Origin: Bacteroidales bacterium
GTDB taxonomy: Bacteria > Bacteroidota > Bacteroidia > Bacteroidales > UBA932
NCBI GenBank assembly: GCA_016281435.1
Contig: JAEEIQ010000104.1
Location: 1-6,116 of the forward strand
Direction: 5' to 3'
Length of the DNA: 6,116 nucleotides
Part shown: one piece after another, positions 1-6,116 of the stretch
Layout: each line of letters opens with the position of its first letter
Position numbering within the stretch: position 1 is the first letter of the stretch
Position numbers and translations under genes: made by a program
The notes under the pieces: generated by a model
Seen by the model: the letters and a program-made list of their open reading frames with translations, nothing else
The model's database searches: none
What the model was told of the DNA's origin: nothing

Positions 1-860
1 AGAAGACCTACGGCAAGGCCGAGGCCGCCTGGCGCATCGTCGCCATCACCGACGCGAAGAAGGGCGCGCTCAAGACCCTCGCCACCCAGGAGGGCTACAA
101 GACCTTCGTCGTGCCCGACAACGTGGGCGGCCGCTTCAGCGTCCTCACCCCGGTGGGCATCCTCCCGATCATCCTCGCCGGCTTCGACATGCGCGCCATG
201 CTGCGCGGCGCCGCCGCGGAGCGCGAGGCCCTGCTTGTCAAGTCCGAGGACAACCCGGCCGTGATGTATGCTGCCATGCGCAACCTCCTCTATGCCGAGC
301 TGGGCAAGAAGGTGGAGATCCTCGTGACCTTCAACCCCAAGCTCCAGTACCTGGGCGAATGGGGGAAGCAGCTCTACGGCGAGTCCGAGGGCAAGGACGG
401 CAAGGGCATCTTCCCGGCCTCCGTGGTGTGCACCACCGACCTCCATTCGATGGGACAGTTCATCCAGGAGGGCGAGCGCGTGATGTTCGAGACCACCGTG
501 ACCGTGATGAACGCGCACCGCGAGGTGATCGTGGGCACCGACGAGCAGAATCTCGACCAGCTCAACTACCTGGCCGGCCGCCATGTCGAGCACTGCAACA
601 AGATGGCGCAACTGGGTACCAAACTGGCCCACATCGACGGCGGCGTGCCGCAGATGGACATCTCCGTGGAGCGGCTGGACGAGGCTTCCCTCGGCGCGCT
701 GTTCTATTTCTTCGAGTTCGCCTGCGGCATCAGCGCCTATGTCCTGGGTATCAACCCGTTCAACCAGCCGGGCGTGGAGGCATACAAAAAGAATATGTTC
801 GCCCTGCTGCGCAAGCCGGGCTACGAGGCGCAGACCGAGGAGATCCTCAAGCGCATCTAG
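1..860 (+). CDS. pgi: Glucose-6-phosphate isomerase, C-terminal part (5' end outside window)
   Basis: Cytoplasmic glycolytic and gluconeogenic enzyme that interconverts glucose 6-phosphate and fructose 6-phosphate. The reading frame is open from base 3 to the TAG at 858-860, giving 285 residues. The family's short bacterial form is about 450 residues, so roughly the N-terminal third lies before the window. Visible family blocks in order: [15 protein letters not shown] (bases about 126-170), the sugar-phosphate site segment [12 protein letters not shown], the segment [19 protein letters not shown], and near the end [16 protein letters not shown]. The last fits the second PROSITE-type PGI signature, whose terminal lysine is catalytic. 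Codon use is strongly GC-rich, as expected for a chromosomal housekeeping gene in a high-GC host. It converges on the lipoprotein gene with 2 bp between stops. The family call is near certain; only the missing N-terminus limits it. Confidence 0.97.
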
Positions 861-862
861 GG

Positions 863-1936
863 TCAGTCCAGCCGATATTCCGTGGGGGCCTTGAGTCCGG
901 GTATTCCATAATACGCGGACACGAGGTCCCCTCGTATGTGGACGCGCCTGCCCAGCAGGCCGGGGTGGTCCTGGAGGTTGAGGGCTTCGCGGATGTCCCC
1001 GGCCTTGAGCTCGACGGACAGGCAGTAACCTGCCTCCGAGGTGCTCGCGCGCGTGCCCAGGACGAGGTTGGTGTTCTTGGTGAAGGGGGGCGCGAAGGAG
1101 ACCCTGCCGGTGCCCGTGGCCACGCCGACGATGTAGCCCCAGACCCAGACGCCCTTTTCGCCGTCGGGGGCGTGGAGGCGCGCCGTGGCCACGTCATAGG
1201 CGTTGCCGGGGTCACCCCCGCCCGGACCGCCCAGCACGAACTCTTCGGACAGCCAGGTCCGGGCGGTGTCCACCTGGATGGTGATGCCGCCGGACTTGGT
1301 ATCCACGTTGGCACCGAGCCGTACCGTGAGGATCTGCCGGGCTTCGAGGGTGCGCGTGAAGAGGGTCTGGACGAGGCCGCCGTCGTCCAGCAGCAGGGCC
1401 ACGGCGCCCGGGCGGAAGAACGCCGTGCGCGTCTCTGCGTAGCCGTAGGCGAGACTGCCTTCGGCGGCCTTGAGCTGCAGGGTTCCGGCCGGGAAGGCCT
1501 GGCGGAAGGATTCTCCGACTTCCAGACGCAGGCCGCTGTTGAGCTGGCTGCAGGCGAGCGTGACGTCTACGCTGGCACCGGATGCCACGCTGACGACCTG
1601 CGTGTCGCCCCATTGGGGCGCATCGAAGGCCGGCGCACTAAAGGGGCCGGAGACGGCTTTGACGGTGTAGGAGCCGGCCGGGACGGAGAGCTCGTCCGGG
1701 GCGTGGTCGTAGGTGCCCTCATAAAGGATTTTCCCGGAGGCGTCGGAGACGGTGAGCTGGAAACTCCCCAAGTCGGGGAGGGCTGCGGCGGAGCGCGTTG
1801 CGGTGGGGTAGGGGGCGTCGAGCGAGATGCGAAGGACGCCGGGGAGGTCCCGGTCGGGGCGGAAAAGGTCCCGGCAGGATGTGGGGACCAGCAGCAGGGC
1901 GGCCAGTGCCGCCAGGAGTCTGACGTAGGTTCTCAT
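863..1936 (-). CDS. Predicted lipoprotein with DUF4493-like and DUF6359-like domains
   Basis: A 357-residue envelope protein of unknown function. The N-terminus MRTYVRLLAALAALLLVPTSC is a signal peptide with a loose Bacteroidota-type lipobox ending at Cys21. The following CRDLFRPDRD has scattered acidic residues but is not a clean surface-export signal, so the final membrane face is open. Residues about 33-210 match my knowledge of DUF4493: a strand-rich module with FQLTVSDASGKIL, then PAGSYTVKAVSG, then a FDAPQWG segment and a conserved-type cysteine (LACSQLN). Residues about 247-357 look like DUF6359: WVWGYIVG at 264-271, NLVLGT, ALNLQDHPGLLGR, then YYGIPGLK close to the C-terminus. The ATG at 1936 follows an A-rich leader (AAAAAACAAACGCT), typical of Bacteroidota initiation. 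Proteins of this architecture are common in gut Bacteroidales and are often near surface or adhesin loci; no partner is visible here. Domain names are from memory, not a search. Confidence 0.88.
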   Translation of the reverse strand: MRTYVRLLAALAALLLVPTSCRDLFRPDRDLPGVLRISLDAPYPTATRSAAALPDLGSFQLTVSDASGKILYEGTYDHAPDELSVPAGSYTVKAVSGPFSAPAFDAPQWGDTQVVSVASGASVDVTLACSQLNSGLRLEVGESFRQAFPAGTLQLKAAEGSLAYGYAETRTAFFRPGAVALLLDDGGLVQTLFTRTLEARQILTVRLGANVDTKSGGITIQVDTARTWLSEEFVLGGPGGGDPGNAYDVATARLHAPDGEKGVWVWGYIVGVATGTGRVSFAPPFTKNTNLVLGTRASTSEAGYCLSVELKAGDIREALNLQDHPGLLGRRVHIRGDLVSAYYGIPGLKAPTEYRLD

Positions 1937-1990
1937 AGCGTTTGTTTTTTACCGCCCCAAGATGCGCAGAATTCCGGCACGCCTTGATAA

Positions 1991-2024
1991 GAAACGTATC
2001 ATTCTGCTGCCGGAAACGTAAAAA
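1991..2024 (-). promoter_or_regulatory. Possible Bacteroidota-type promoter for the lipoprotein gene
   Basis: On the minus strand TACGTTTC occurs at 1998-1991, one base off the Bacteroidota -7 consensus TAnnTTTG, with a T-rich stretch (TTTT at 2024-2021) about 21 bases further upstream in place of the -33 TTTG. The start codon is about 55 bases downstream. A second TACGTTTC lies at 2020-2013, 22 bases away, so either copy might serve. Both match the consensus imperfectly and the spacing is slightly long, so this is only a candidate. Confidence 0.25.
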
Positions 2025-2104
2025 GTACCTTTCTTTCGATCCTGTATCTCCTGGTTACTTCCTCCGGCCTGCTGCTCGTGGGAGCCGCCTTCCTTTTTTC
2101 ACCG

Positions 2105-2125
2105 GAATGCTGCTCGCAGGCAGGG
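2105..2125 (+). repeat. Diverged inverted copy of the 25-bp repeat
   Basis: This stretch starts GAATGCT and ends GCAGGCAGGG, with a shorter middle. The reverse complement of the two exact repeats at 2217 and 2346 also starts GAATGCT and ends ACAGGCAGGG. Similarity continues past the end: GATCCTTTTC here against GTCCTTTGAG next to the 2217 copy. The best reading is an older copy in opposite orientation with about 4 bases lost. Chance similarity of part of it cannot be excluded. Confidence 0.45.
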
Positions 2126-2216
2126 ATCCTTTTCATCGCACGCGCCACCACGCATCGCGGACTGCGTCACGCGCTGCTGACAGCGGCCCTGCCCGGGCAA
2201 AATGCTCCTCAAAGGA

Positions 2217-2241
2217 CCCTGCCTGTCTCGCTGTAGCATTC
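2217..2241. repeat. 25-bp direct repeat, copy 1
   Basis: Begins CCCTGCCTGTCTCG and ends CTGTAGCATTC, identical over 25 bases to the copy at 2346-2370, with starts 129 bp apart. The bases just before it also resemble those before copy 2: GGGCA, then ATG, then TCCTC, beginning at 2195. The repeated unit is therefore probably nearer 47-49 bp with a diverged left half. The repeat has no coding role that I can see. Confidence 0.85.
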
Positions 2242-2282
2242 TGGTCGGACGAAGGCACTTTCGGAGCGAAGCGACCGGGGGA

Positions 2283-2306
2283 GTCTGAGGGGAACGCCCC
2301 TCAGAC
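2283..2306. repeat. Perfect hairpin, 10-bp stem and 4-nt loop
   Basis: Arms GTCTGAGGGG (2283-2292) and CCCCTCAGAC (2297-2306) are exact reverse complements around the loop AACG. It lies between the two 25-bp repeat copies. No T tract follows on either strand, so it is not a classical intrinsic terminator, although it would fold strongly in RNA. Confidence 0.8.
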
Positions 2307-2319
2307 ATAGTGAAACGAC

Positions 2320-2348
2320 GGGGGCAGATGTCCTCGACATCTGCCCCC
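2320..2348. repeat. Perfect hairpin, 13-bp stem and 3-nt loop
   Basis: Arms GGGGGCAGATGTC (2320-2332) and GACATCTGCCCCC (2336-2348) are exact reverse complements around the loop CTC. The right arm overlaps the first 3 bases of repeat copy 2. In copy 1 the equivalent left sequence (2195-2216) keeps GGGCA...TCCTC but not the full palindrome. That suggests the hairpin is part of the repeat unit and has decayed in one copy. No T tract is adjacent. Confidence 0.82.
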
Positions 2349-2370
2349 TGCCTGTCTCGCTGTAGCATTC
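2346..2370. repeat. 25-bp direct repeat, copy 2
   Basis: Identical to 2217-2241 over 25 bases. Similarity stops at once on the right (CGGAT here, TGGTC after copy 1), so this edge is a sharp boundary of the repeat unit. On the left the unit runs into the 13-bp hairpin. Confidence 0.85.
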
Positions 2371-2400
2371 CGGATCAACAGCCTTTCCCCTTGCTTTCAG

Positions 2401-2431
2401 TCGGGGTGCGTCAGGGCCACTTTCTCACCCC
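2401..2431. repeat. 31-nt hairpin repeat A
   Basis: Starts TCGGGGTGCG and ends TCTCACCCC. GGGGTG (2403-2408) pairs with CACCCC (2426-2431), extended to 7 bp by C2402-G2432, with a 17-nt loop. Copy B at 2452 has the same length, ends and stem but a different centre. The two starts are 51 bp apart. Function unknown. Confidence 0.7.
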
Positions 2432-2451
2432 GTCCGTCGTTTTTCCAGCAA

Positions 2452-2482
2452 TCGGGGTGCGCAGGATCGCGATTCTCACCCC
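2452..2482. repeat. 31-nt hairpin repeat B
   Basis: Same ends as copy A (TCGGGGTGCG and TCTCACCCC) and the same 17-nt loop length, but the centre contains the 8-bp palindrome ATCGCGAT (2466-2473). The stem is GGGGTG 2454-2459 with CACCCC 2477-2482. It lies 75 bp downstream of the restriction gene's stop on the transcribed strand, so it could act in 3' end formation. No U run follows it, so that is only a possibility. Confidence 0.7.
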
Positions 2483-2557
2483 ACTTCGATAAATTTGGGC
2501 AGCGACCTGCTTTTCAAGTCCAGGCCGCCGGCCGGTGTCTTTTCTTTACATCCGCAG

Positions 2558-4051
2558 TCAGGTGTCCTTGAACAGGGCGTTGAGATTTTCGAGCTCGGTG
2601 AGGATAGCCTTTTCTTCGGACTCGGAAGAGAGGCCCTTTTCCGCATACCACCATTCACCCGTGCCGGTCCAGTAGGAGGAATCCACCGTCGGAAGGTCGG
2701 AATGGTCTTTCAGGGTGTCGGTGCCGGGAAGCTTTCGGATTCCGATCTCAAGGTGATCCTGATCGTTGCACCCCCATGTGAAGGAGACGAAGTATTTCCC
2801 CTTTCGCCGGACACCGACGCTTACCCACTCCCGCGTCCAGTCCGCATCCCTTTCGACGGGATAGTCCCGCCAGAGAGAGCCGCATCTCGCAACGTAGACG
2901 AACTCGGATCCGTCCAGTTTCGATGCCAGTTTCTCCATCATCCGCTTGCGTCGCATCTGACGGTCGGTCAGGCACAACTCCCGGAGCAGGGGAGAAAGGA
3001 GTTCATAGCTCTTCCCATAGATGTCGAGGGTGCGTTTCAGGGACAGTTGAGCGAACTCGATGCTTCCCTCCGGACTGTCCGGCAGGGAAGCCCCCAGGCG
3101 GGTTACGTTATGGAATTCCGGATAAAAGAGAAGTCCTTCTACATTCTTTTCATATACATCGTACGCGTCTTTGTCGCCCTTGGAGCGGTTGTCCTCGAAG
3201 GGGATGGCTGCGATATTCCCGATGCGGCCGATCCAATGGTTGCAGAAATCCCTGTAGATAGCACGGGGGCGTCCGCGTTCCGAAACCCAGTTCCTGGGAA
3301 TGATATGGTCGTAATCCCAAGGACGGTTGTGCTCCTCCCACATGTCTTCCCTTGCGGGATCGTACAGCGGGAAGTTTGTGTTGATATAAGAACGCTGCGC
3401 ATAAAGGAGCATCTCCTGTGCCGTGTAATTCCTTTCCCAGGAAGACATCCTGTCATAGAAGTCCCCCCAGGGGGCGTAGCCGTCGAGGCTCCAAGGGGTC
3501 CACTTCGGGTCATTCTTTTCGATCTTGATGAACCCTTCCATCTCTTCGGGAGAGTAGAGGGGGAGAGCGAGATTCCGTCCCAGGCACTCGGCAAGACCCT
3601 GGCGCAGAGACTGCGCATCACAGCCTTTGCTGATATGGGAGAAAACCGTTTCCGCAGCCTGCCTCTTGTCCAGACCGAACCAATGCAGGATCAAGGCGGC
3701 CGCACGGATCTCTTCCGGTGTTATCGCCATCTCCCCGTCCATATCCATGGCGGCCAGATACATTAGCAGGAGGAACACGTCGGGGGATCTGCGTGCGATG
3801 GACGTGCGGATAAAGGCCGGCATCCCGTCGCGCTCTCTGTCGTCCTTGTCAAAGACCGCAAGCCACGTATCAATCGTGCGCATGATCTCTTCGAGATGTT
3901 CGTAGATGCGGTCTATCTCGACTTTTGCCTCCTGCTTGCCTGCCAGGTCGCGGATTTGCCGGACGGAAAGGGAATTCCTGAGCCCTTTCCCGGGATCCAT
4001 TCTGGTCAGGGCAAGCCGGAAGGCCAGCATAACGAGTTTGGACGGCGACAT
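2558..4051 (-). CDS. GmrD half: DUF1524 HNH nuclease with C-terminal extension (frame continues upstream to 4168)
   Basis: Nuclease half of a GmrSD/BrxU-like type IV restriction protein, which cuts DNA carrying modified bases. The first ATG gives 497 residues, but the frame is open back to 4168 and the upstream codons read as real family sequence (FNRLNTGGTRISPDALNYSA). The ATG at 4051 is therefore probably not a natural start. The HNH (His-Me finger) core lies at residues about 247-291: YDHIIPRNW with the DH pair at 248-249, IGNIAAI, then DNRSKGD with Asn288 and Lys291. The segment before it (60-240) is helical and typical of the linker region of the family. The last 120 residues (WRDYPVERDADW to LFKDT) are rich in Trp and beta-prone, and I cannot assign them. 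The stop TGA is at 2560-2558. If translated alone, this half lacks the DUF262 NTPase part and should be inactive. Confidence 0.85.
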   Translation of the reverse strand: MSPSKLVMLAFRLALTRMDPGKGLRNSLSVRQIRDLAGKQEAKVEIDRIYEHLEEIMRTIDTWLAVFDKDDRERDGMPAFIRTSIARRSPDVFLLLMYLAAMDMDGEMAITPEEIRAAALILHWFGLDKRQAAETVFSHISKGCDAQSLRQGLAECLGRNLALPLYSPEEMEGFIKIEKNDPKWTPWSLDGYAPWGDFYDRMSSWERNYTAQEMLLYAQRSYINTNFPLYDPAREDMWEEHNRPWDYDHIIPRNWVSERGRPRAIYRDFCNHWIGRIGNIAAIPFEDNRSKGDKDAYDVYEKNVEGLLFYPEFHNVTRLGASLPDSPEGSIEFAQLSLKRTLDIYGKSYELLSPLLRELCLTDRQMRRKRMMEKLASKLDGSEFVYVARCGSLWRDYPVERDADWTREWVSVGVRRKGKYFVSFTWGCNDQDHLEIGIRKLPGTDTLKDHSDLPTVDSSYWTGTGEWWYAEKGLSSESEEKAILTELENLNALFKDT

Positions 4052-4155
4052 GTACCGGCTGGCGATCGAGTCATTCCTTTCCCGTATCCCGCCACAGTAG
4101 GCCTGGATGGCGGAGTAGTTGAGGGCATCCGGGGAGATCCTGGTCCCGCCCGTGT

Positions 4156-4977
4156 TCAGCCGGTTGAAAGGACCTCCATGGACGTGGCTTCGTTTGTCTT
4201 CTCCTTCCCCTCGGACTCCCGCTCCACGACGGTACGCGGAAGGATGTCGCAGTGGACCTTGTAACTGTCCAGCCTCTTGAAAACCGGATAAAACTTTTCC
4301 CTTATCAGTGAGAGGTCGGCTTCGTCAAGTTCCTTGAAGGGGAGTCCGCCATACCCGGCACAACTGTTCCGGACGTAATCGGAGAAAGAAGACGGGCTGT
4401 CCAGGGGCGCCTGCAGGAAGAAGTGAAGGGGGACCGGCCGGACCGCTTCTACGGGCCATGTCTGGCTGAGCGGAAGGGGATCCCTGTAAATGTTCGCCTT
4501 CGGTTTCCCGAATCTTTCCAGGGCGTCCCGCCGTTCCTGCGAAGACAGCGGGAAGCAGTCGTCGTTGTTCTTGAAGCCCCAGGGATGTGCTTTCGTGGTG
4601 GACTTGACCCAGAAGACGCGGGTGCTGTTACCGACGGTTTCGGGGCGGATGTCAAGCCAGAGCATGACCCCGGTGTCCCCGGAGCCGGAGAATCCTCTGG
4701 CGATGGCGTTGTACCGCTGCTGGCCGTCCATCAGGAAGAAGGTGCCGTCGGTGGCGGCGGAAAGAATGAACGAACCGAGCGGGCAACCTCTTAACATGGA
4801 ATCCCATAGAAGCTCCATTTGGCGGGGCTTCCATACCAGCCCGCGCTGCAGGTCGGGGATCTTTACCTCCGATCCCTGCCCGTTAGTCCATTTCGCAATC
4901 TCCCTAAGCGCATAGATGCGTGCGCGATTGTCGTTTTTTGTCTCTTCCATATCCGTTATGATTTCAGGTATGATCAT
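4156..4977 (-). CDS. GmrS half: DUF262 domain, prematurely terminated
   Basis: The N-terminal 273 residues of a GmrSD-type protein. DUF262 is a ParB-fold NTPase-like module that, in characterised GmrSD and BrxU proteins, supplies nucleotide-dependent control of the nuclease half. Visible motifs: IPDLQRGLVWK at 40-50 (the QRxxVW motif), LLWDSMLRGCPLGSFIL at 56-72, and MDGQQRYNAI at 83-92 with the diagnostic DGQQR at 84-88. The frame ends a few residues after TSMEV, exactly where the family's FNRLNTGG signature should follow; that signature is present one frame over. The ATG at 4977 is 4 bp after the exonuclease stop, fitting translational coupling; Met10 is an alternative start. The break falls inside the domain rather than at a domain border, so this is not a natural two-subunit GmrS/GmrD split. 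Confidence 0.87.
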   Translation of the reverse strand: MIIPEIITDMEETKNDNRARIYALREIAKWTNGQGSEVKIPDLQRGLVWKPRQMELLWDSMLRGCPLGSFILSAATDGTFFLMDGQQRYNAIARGFSGSGDTGVMLWLDIRPETVGNSTRVFWVKSTTKAHPWGFKNNDDCFPLSSQERRDALERFGKPKANIYRDPLPLSQTWPVEAVRPVPLHFFLQAPLDSPSSFSDYVRNSCAGYGGLPFKELDEADLSLIREKFYPVFKRLDSYKVHCDILPRTVVERESEGKEKTNEATSMEVLSTG

Positions 4978-4981
4978 GTTG

Positions 4982-5476
4982 TCAGAGTAATTTCATTGCA
5001 ATGCAGGCGCATGCCTCCGCATCTGCAAGGGCATGGTGGTGGTTCGTGAGGTCGTAGCCGCAGGCGGCGGCGACGGTCTGGAGCTGGTGATTGGGGAGCC
5101 TCCTTCCATAGAACCGTCTCGATGCCCACAGTGTGTCGTGGAATTCATAGTCCGGATAGTCCATCTGATAGACGCGGAACACCTGCCTGAGACAGCTCTC
5201 ATCAAAGGGGCTGTTGTGGGCGACCAGCGGCAACCCCTCGATAAGAGGCACTATCTTCTTCCAGACATAGGGAAAGACCGGTGCGTCCTCCGTGTCTTCC
5301 GGACCCAGGCCGTGGACCTGCCGGCAGAACCATTGGTAGTACTCCGGCTCTGGATGGATCAGACTGTAGAAGCGGTCCACAATCTCCCCGCCGCGTACGA
5401 CCACGACCCCCACGCTGCACACGCTGCTTGGACACTCGTTGGCCGTCTCGAAATCTATCGCCGCGAAATGTCTCAT
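4982..5476 (-). CDS. DEDDh-family 3'-5' exonuclease (DnaQ/epsilon-like)
   Basis: A single-domain exonuclease of 164 residues, expected to remove nucleotides from 3' ends using two metal ions. All five DEDDh residues are visible: Asp8 and Glu10 in IDFETAN (Exo I), Asp92 in AHNSPFDESCL (Exo II), and His147 with Asp152 in HHALADAEA (Exo III). FYSLIHPEP and VHGLGPEDTEDAP are the usual epsilon-like connecting segments. I chose the ATG at 5476 because it overlaps the WYL stop as ATGA and starts two residues before the first core strand; a GTG at 5494 would add six residues. It sits between a WYL regulator and a GmrSD gene, 4 bp before the latter. It may be a nuclease of the defence module or a repair-type exonuclease carried along. 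It is too small to be a polymerase subunit with extra domains. Substrate unknown. Confidence 0.92.
   Translation of the reverse strand: MRHFAAIDFETANECPSSVCSVGVVVVRGGEIVDRFYSLIHPEPEYYQWFCRQVHGLGPEDTEDAPVFPYVWKKIVPLIEGLPLVAHNSPFDESCLRQVFRVYQMDYPDYEFHDTLWASRRFYGRRLPNHQLQTVAAACGYDLTNHHHALADAEACACIAMKLL
5473..5476 (-). promoter_or_regulatory. ATGA start-stop overlap coupling WYL and exonuclease genes
   Basis: On the minus strand the exonuclease ATG (5476-5474) shares bases with the WYL gene's TGA (5475-5473). Such 4-base overlaps usually mean translational coupling within one transcript. No strong Shine-Dalgarno sequence precedes it, as is usual in Bacteroidota, so coupling by a terminating ribosome is the likely route. 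Confidence 0.75.
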
Positions 5477-6116
5477 AGACCGTAGTTCTTGCACATCCGG
5501 GTGATGTCGGCCTTGATCTCGTCGCGAAGCTCTTCCGGTTCAAGGACAACAACGTCCGGGCCATGGCTCAGGAGTTCCTGACGGAAATCGTATGTGGGCA
5601 CGAGATGATACTCGAAGATGCCATATTCGGGCGTTTCCTCAATGAGTCTCTGTGTGTCGTGCAGCGGCAGGGAATCGATATACCGGACCTGATATGGGTC
5701 GACTTTGATCCGGACGGTGGAAGGCTTCCTGCCATCGAGGATGACTCCGAAGTACTTGCCGAAGAATTCCCCGGCATTAAACTTCGCGGGCATCTTCAGG
5801 GCCTTCTTCTGGGGAACGACATCCTTCATCCGTTCATCCAGGGCATAGACCCTGGGGACATCATACCCGTCGCTCCTTCCCAGCACATACCAGCGCTGCT
5901 TGAAAAGCTTCAGGCAGTAGGGGTGCAGGATGAAGGTGTTCGGCTCGTTCCGCGAGAAACTCTGGTAGGTCACTTCGACGGTTTTCTTGTCACGCATGGC
6001 ATTCACGATGACCGGAAGCCATTTCTGGCTGGAGGGGATCTTCTCGAAGAGGATCCGGTCACGCATGTCGGAACTCTCGTTCAGCAGGTTGTTCATCGAC
6101 AGGGACTCCAGCAGCC
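5473..6116 (-). CDS. WYL-domain transcriptional regulator, C-terminal part (N-terminus outside window)
   Basis: Ligand-sensing part of a WYL regulator. The frame is open through the right edge of the window, upstream of the internal ATG at 6096, with codons reading LLESLS before it. About 214 residues are present, and Bacteroidales relatives are about 300, so the N-terminal winged helix-turn-helix is missing from view. Counting from Met at 6096: ILFEKIPSSQKWLPVI, then VEVTYQSFSRNEPNTFILHPYCLKLF (given as a span at about 40-66), then RWYVLGRS with the namesake W-Y pair at about 68-69, and near the end YDFRQELLSHGPDVVVLEP, the WCX-type C-terminal region. WYL proteins such as BrxR and CapW repress phage-defence operons until triggered, so this is likely the regulator of the exonuclease and GmrSD genes downstream. 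The ligand and DNA site are unknown. Its promoter lies beyond 6116. Confidence 0.93.
   Translation of the reverse strand, partial: LLESLSMNNLLNESSDMRDRILFEKIPSSQKWLPVIVNAMRDKKTVEVTYQSFSRNEPNTFILHPYCLKLFKQRWYVLGRSDGYDVPRVYALDERMKDVVPQKKALKMPAKFNAGEFFGKYFGVILDGRKPSTVRIKVDPYQVRYIDSLPLHDTQRLIEETPEYGIFEYHLVPTYDFRQELLSHGPDVVVLEPEELRDEIKADITRMCKNYGL

Follow-up and report, generated by a model that had tools for sequence, protein, structure and literature searches.

A GmrSD-type restriction gene interrupted by a frame change within its DUF262 motif in a Bacteroidales contig

Passages describing the founding GmrSD system present GmrS and GmrD as separate proteins (PMC4619093, PMC10952713). Sections of three papers ascribe to the DGQQR motif a role in nucleoside triphosphate (NTP) hydrolysis by DUF262 (PMC4619093, PMC8565348, PMC13251355), and one of them sets out the HNH motif of GmrSD as (I/L/V)(E/D)H(I/L/V)xPQ ... 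N ... N (PMC4619093). A further member of this set of enzymes, BrxU, is placed by the relevant part of PMC8565348 inside a BREX locus, on an island that also carries the WYL regulator BrxR. Here we describe a GmrSD-type gene on the minus strand of a 6,116-base stretch of Bacteroidales DNA (contig JAEEIQ010000104.1, hereafter the window), which is split into two frames inside a conserved DUF262 motif. We think it probable that this copy of an accessory defence gene has lost its function in the ordinary way; it is the last gene of an operon that also encodes a WYL-domain regulator and an exonuclease.

The N-terminal frame (4977–4156) terminates as ...ATSMEVLSTG-stop, and the neighbouring frame continues from position 4168 with FNRLNTGGTRISPD..., meeting no stop before its own at 2560–2558. 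A sequence-only reading of this DNA had reported that the first frame stops inside the DUF262 motif and that the second runs from 4168 to 2558 with no start in its first 39 codons. Both points were confirmed: the first ATG, GTG or TTG of the second frame is the ATG at 4051, 39 codons in and beyond the conserved motif. The second frame is actually open upstream to 4324, giving about 170 bases (approximately 4324–4156) in which both frames are open, but it resembles the family only from 4168 onward. Alignment of the two halves to homologues shows them to be consecutive parts of one intact relative, P0004 (797 amino acids), with residues 1–261 matching the first frame (72% identity) and residues 262–796 the second (71%). 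Because the two blocks align gap-free across the junction, with no residue of P0004 missing, the frame change can be placed to one codon, between that for Leu270 (4170–4168) and that for the following Phe (4168–4166).

The motif concerned is highly conserved: none of the 46 full-length relatives in the alignment departs from L261, F262, R264, N266, G269 and T270 (P0004 numbering, as below), and the pattern LFxRLNxGG is found in 146 of the 147 fetched proteins of at least 700 amino acids, P0115 being the exception. Since both halves match one protein and the motif residues are invariant, the split gene is not a chance arrangement, and the proposal that a GmrSD-family gene has been divided by a net one-base frame change in this motif, with halves otherwise free of stops, is well supported. 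On the structure predicted for P0004, the frame change maps inside a helix (257–265), in a low-confidence stretch (predicted local distance difference test, pLDDT, about 50).

Profile searches agree with this picture. The first half scores 64.3 bits with PF03235, whose cut-off is 33.2, but matches only profile positions 6–78 of 199, against 73.4–79.9 bits over most of the profile in four intact relatives (positions 11–193 in P0004). PF07510, the C-terminal GmrSD model, reaches 17.6 bits on the second half, under its cut-off of 23; the four intact relatives are likewise under it, although precomputed PF07510 annotation is present on some relatives. Despite the sub-threshold score, the second half carries the DHIIP ... 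N ... N motif. Judged from its sequence, the gene is a member of the GmrSD-type (type IV) restriction family, and because the break falls inside DUF262 we class it as a disrupted member and do not count it among working enzymes.

An intact gene would yield one chain of about 800 residues in which, by analogy with GmrSD, BrxU and SspE, the ParB/Srx-like DUF262 part would bind and hydrolyse NTP and sense modified DNA, with the HNH part cutting that DNA. The net one-base deletion in the invariant motif would end translation after 273 codons. Such a product would retain DGQQR and would lose both LFxRLNxGG and the entire nuclease, and the truncated enzyme is for that reason almost certainly inactive. 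With the GmrSD gene last in the operon, both upstream genes would stay readable.

Relatives were sought with public protein queries (the two halves of the window gene and the N-terminal part of P0004; the best 120 matches were listed for one half and for the P0004 query) and by scanning genomes. A scan with the C-terminal half gave no match; 41 loci emerged when aligned intact relatives served as the query. Thirty-eight matches, at 37 of these loci, span the junction and none stops there; compared with the relatives examined, the break looks like a lesion and not like a family trait. This bears directly on the suggestion that one mRNA might sometimes yield the full protein, by frameshifting, either programmed or tolerated, or by slipped-strand phase variation. 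The two frames do overlap by roughly 170 bases, and the RNA fold of the region is slightly better than that of shuffled sequences (z −1.88; 10 of 200 shuffles as good). However, no X-XXY-YYZ heptamer occurs in the overlap (4327 to 4158), the sole one in the first half lying far outside it at codon 4938. Nor is there any homopolymer of five or more bases in 4100–4260 (the longest in 4140–4200 is three bases) or any tandem repeat in 3900–4400. With neither a slippery site nor a repeat tract, and with the 37 related loci unbroken at this point, we consider recoding or phase variation very improbable, contrary to what the sequence-only reading had allowed for.

We give just as little credence to the idea that the halves work as two proteins, in the manner of the original two-subunit GmrS and GmrD, whose separateness the accounts cited above describe. 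Translation could restart at the ATG at 4051, and public databases hold some N-terminal fragments whose ends lie about 30 residues or less from the junction, P0123 and P0131 among them. The cut, though, falls within DUF262 and not between domains, as the partial profile match of the first half shows, and a restart some 105 bases beyond the stop would lose 39 residues, the invariant motif included. The comparison took in 197 proteins; P0004 residues 250–275 contain the end of one of them and the start of two others, and these three come from contigs of 1,599, 4,656 and 2,632 bases. P0123 (273 amino acids, ending at P0004 residue 278; four contigs, the longest of 16,835 bases) and P0131 (ending at residue 288; contig of 9,490 bases) both retain the motif that is absent from the first half of the window gene. 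Together with P0130, P0135 and P0136 they end at residues 274–288, that is, 12–26 residues beyond the first post-junction residue, and counts of fragment ends near the junction reflect a search that itself restricts fragment length to around that of the query. A search for homologues split at exactly this point thus returned a few fragments ending close by and no clear exact case. Neither recoding nor a functional split finds real support, and this handful of N-terminal fragments is the nearest thing to it.

A more serious competitor is a sequencing or assembly error, in which the contig would have dropped one base of a gene that is really unbroken. We regard this as possible but unlikely, and weigh real inactivation as about twice as probable. 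The first 2,088 bases of the window align without an indel to G237, a related genome described below; the exonuclease and lipoprotein frames and the partial WYL and isomerase frames are all unbroken; and the short homopolymers around the junction also speak against an error. The 15 differences from G237 in 861–2088, outside the GmrSD gene, show no evident error-like bias. Further support for real loss comes from leave-one-out counts of deviations at columns that are invariant in the remaining sequences, used as a test of relaxed selection. Among 111 sequences the window copy ranks joint first with P0022 for radical changes at such columns, a shared rank that it keeps if one deviant is tolerated. 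Its radical changes are F56C, D276A, K283Q and W286C, three of them no more than 24 residues downstream of the break.

Several observations weigh against real loss. The gene carries a single lesion across 806 codons, so any decay would have to be young. The record is one 6,116-base contig, in which the operon is joined to conserved genes via a sequence repeated many times in G237, and its assembly is not beyond doubt. P0022, which ties with the window copy, is an intact open reading frame; the window copy falls to second once as many as three deviants are tolerated; and in a 47-sequence version P0007 has five deviations to its four, although those of P0007 are conservative. When the first half was compared with four relatives it showed four radical changes, the same number as the intact L072. 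The neighbouring genes are not free of such changes either. The isomerase has a radical W121G (fragment residue 121, window 363–365) in a column invariant in 11 relatives, possibly a base-calling error or a real oddity, and the exonuclease (A104Q, seven relatives) and WYL protein (A63L, four relatives) each have one milder change at an invariant column; these neighbour-gene changes could be base-calling noise or nothing. In the neighbour-gene controls (relatives: isomerase 11, lipoprotein 4, exonuclease 7, WYL 4, first half 4, second half 1) several relatives equal or exceed the window in radical deviations. Support for relaxed selection on the window copy is therefore modest. The earlier suggestion that stop-free halves point to a recent or artefactual lesion is reasonable as far as it goes, whilst the radical substitutions at otherwise invariant sites hint at some relaxed selection besides. 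Taken together, the unusually radical changes at invariant positions and the existence of broken relatives make loss of function the most likely explanation.

Amongst the proteins fetched there is no intact close allele above 72% full-length identity, the value for the best full-length relative, and so no closer intact copy against which to compare the window gene. The nearest protein, P0153 (266 amino acids, from a contig of 1,220 bases), is 82% identical over 77 residues and 88% over 193 but lacks the middle of the gene, in frame, and so provides no control. It may be a deletion allele or an assembly product. The second half of the window gene is itself listed as P0003, with six member sequences; its first half is not among the matches listed for the first-half query. 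A viral scan found no relative, phage records held none and plasmid records gave one weak partial match.

At three of the 41 loci the gene is plainly interrupted at another point: L005 has an in-frame stop near position 504, and in L031 and L037 the frame changes; L034–L036, L038, L039 and L041 are partial matches only and were left out of this judgement. L014 was also considered as a broken copy, on account of a stop at position 657, and was rejected: L015 matches only to about the same point, which is taken as a natural end. In the genus of G237, five of 400 genomes have a match at E ≤ 1e-20, one of them containing an internal TAG, and in the family of G001, the genome that holds L001, the figure is four of 299. 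GmrSD genes of this kind are an uncommon, accessory part of genomes in this group, and some copies are broken.

The features of the operon are collected in Table 1. The three genes look co-transcribed, with the GmrSD gene last, because of their spacing: the exonuclease may start at GTG 5494 or at ATG 5476, the latter sharing four bases with the WYL stop, and four bases separate the end of the exonuclease gene from the GmrSD start. Promoter and terminator scans performed at chance level, and Rfam returned no match at gathering thresholds. The WYL gene product scores 56.1 bits with PF13280 and 51.9 bits with PF25583, each exceeding the cut-off; where WYL homologues are present near related DUF262 genes, their open frames are of 301–370 amino acids.

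Table 1. Features of the operon and of the interrupted gene (domain layout of GmrSD part 2 taken from the structure model of P0004)
Feature	Position	Strand	Remarks
WYL-domain regulator (WYL + WCX)	5473..6114	-	Pfam; truncated by contig end; first visible operon gene
DEDDh (DnaQ-like) 3'-5' exonuclease	4982..5494	-	PF00929, 60.9 bits; ends from sequence
GmrSD gene part 1: DUF262 (GmrSD_N) N-terminal region	4156..4977	-	273 codons; TGA stop 4158-4156
GmrSD gene part 2: remaining DUF262, helical region, HNH (DUF1524-like) nuclease, extra C-terminal alpha/beta domain	2558..4168	-	
DGQQR motif (NTP hydrolysis motif of DUF262)	4714..4728	-	Read from sequence
YDHIIP, HNH nuclease motif	3296..3313	-	Followed by IGN (3223-3215) and EDNRSK (3196-3179)
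Frame switch, Leu270 of first frame / Phe of FNRLNTGG in second	4166..4170	-	
First ATG of second frame (MSPSK)	4037..4051	-	Earliest ATG/GTG/TTG past the stop in that frame

At 10 of the 41 loci (L001, L003, L005, L006, L009, L010, L012, L013, L023 and L040), the flanking sequence fetched around the DUF262 gene, up to 6 kb, holds a WYL homologue, an exonuclease homologue or both; the WYL match at L009 is just 25% identical. The window order, WYL–exonuclease–DUF262/HNH, is repeated at L012 and L023, in distant genomes, and in G123 (L063) an exonuclease–WYL pair adjoins a more distant DUF262 gene in a different order. The association is loose, since G311 and G381 also carry the exonuclease but yielded no GmrSD relative (in a protein search for G311 and in a DNA search only for G381). 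It is conceivable, though doubtful, that the WYL regulator, the DEDDh exonuclease and the long GmrSD-type enzyme make up a recurrent three-gene defence cassette, with the regulated exonuclease aiding the modification-dependent endonuclease, for example by resecting its cuts, and with frameshift loss of the endonuclease as a common off-switch for hosts. The window exonuclease also matches the first 163 residues of the PADLOC candidate PDC-S48, at 94 bits.

At the other end of the window lie a glucose-6-phosphate isomerase gene and a lipoprotein gene. By the isomerase gene, the closest of 101 genomes of the G001 genus are G349, G311, G237 and G381 (90–91%). Window positions 1–2088, spanning both genes, are 94.5% identical to 4195–6282 of locus L059 in G237. 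The 114 differences are unevenly spread: the isomerase part holds 99, of which 42 are C/G transversions, and the next 1,228 bases hold 15. Divergence shifts sharply near base 860, the lipoprotein gene being 99% identical, a pattern that points to recombination close to where the isomerase gene ends.

Synteny with G237 ends after base 2088: a 56-base match is followed there by a 973-codon open reading frame, presumably peptidase-like from its sequence, instead of the defence operon. Window positions 2064–2501 form a dispersed intergenic repeat. With 40 out of 88 candidate places in G237 scored, there are at least 41 matches, of which the majority are to this stretch and a number are fragments of a single copy. 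The core of the repeat, at about 2260–2310, also occurs in G311, G349 and G381. The repeat contains a 28-base direct repeat (2217–2244, 2346–2373) and an imperfect inverted repeat (2305–2332 / 2336–2363), has no Rfam match at gathering thresholds and looks like a family of the genus resembling repetitive extragenic palindromic (REP) sequences or miniature inverted-repeat transposable elements (MITEs). The operon adjoins this repeat and reached that position either by insertion or through a join made during assembly.

In isolation, a single disabled accessory restriction gene from a known family matters little. The locus does carry a caution, namely that a frame change that splits a motif, with neither a slippery site nor a conserved break, should not be read as recoding. 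A modest lead for defence annotation, better than the break itself, lies in the operon context: a WYL regulator and an exonuclease precede an enzyme of the long GmrSD type, which the C-terminal Pfam GmrSD model scores below threshold both in the window copy and in four intact relatives.

How, then, does the locus compare with known systems? Like single-chain GmrSD enzymes such as Eco94GmrSD, which is compared here through partial published descriptions and not by sequence, the family has a DUF262 part with DGQQR and an HNH motif in the C-terminal half, on one chain in the relatives of the window gene. It differs from them in its length of about 800 residues, its extra C-terminal domain (residues 661–797 in the P0004 model), its sub-threshold DUF1524 profile score and, in the window copy, the frameshift. 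The predicted fold of intact P0004 resembles that of BrxU (PDB 7p9k, 7p9m), but sequence identity is low (13–15%) and BrxU sits in a BREX locus. SspE has the phosphorothioation genes SspABCD as partners, and none of these was seen among the genes of the short window contig. Finally, the PADLOC entries HEC-05 / HEC-06, NsnA, PD-T4-2_A and PDC-M55C give weak to moderate matches to the start of DUF262, but their best stretches are all shorter than 100 residues and their full architecture differs from that of the family described here.
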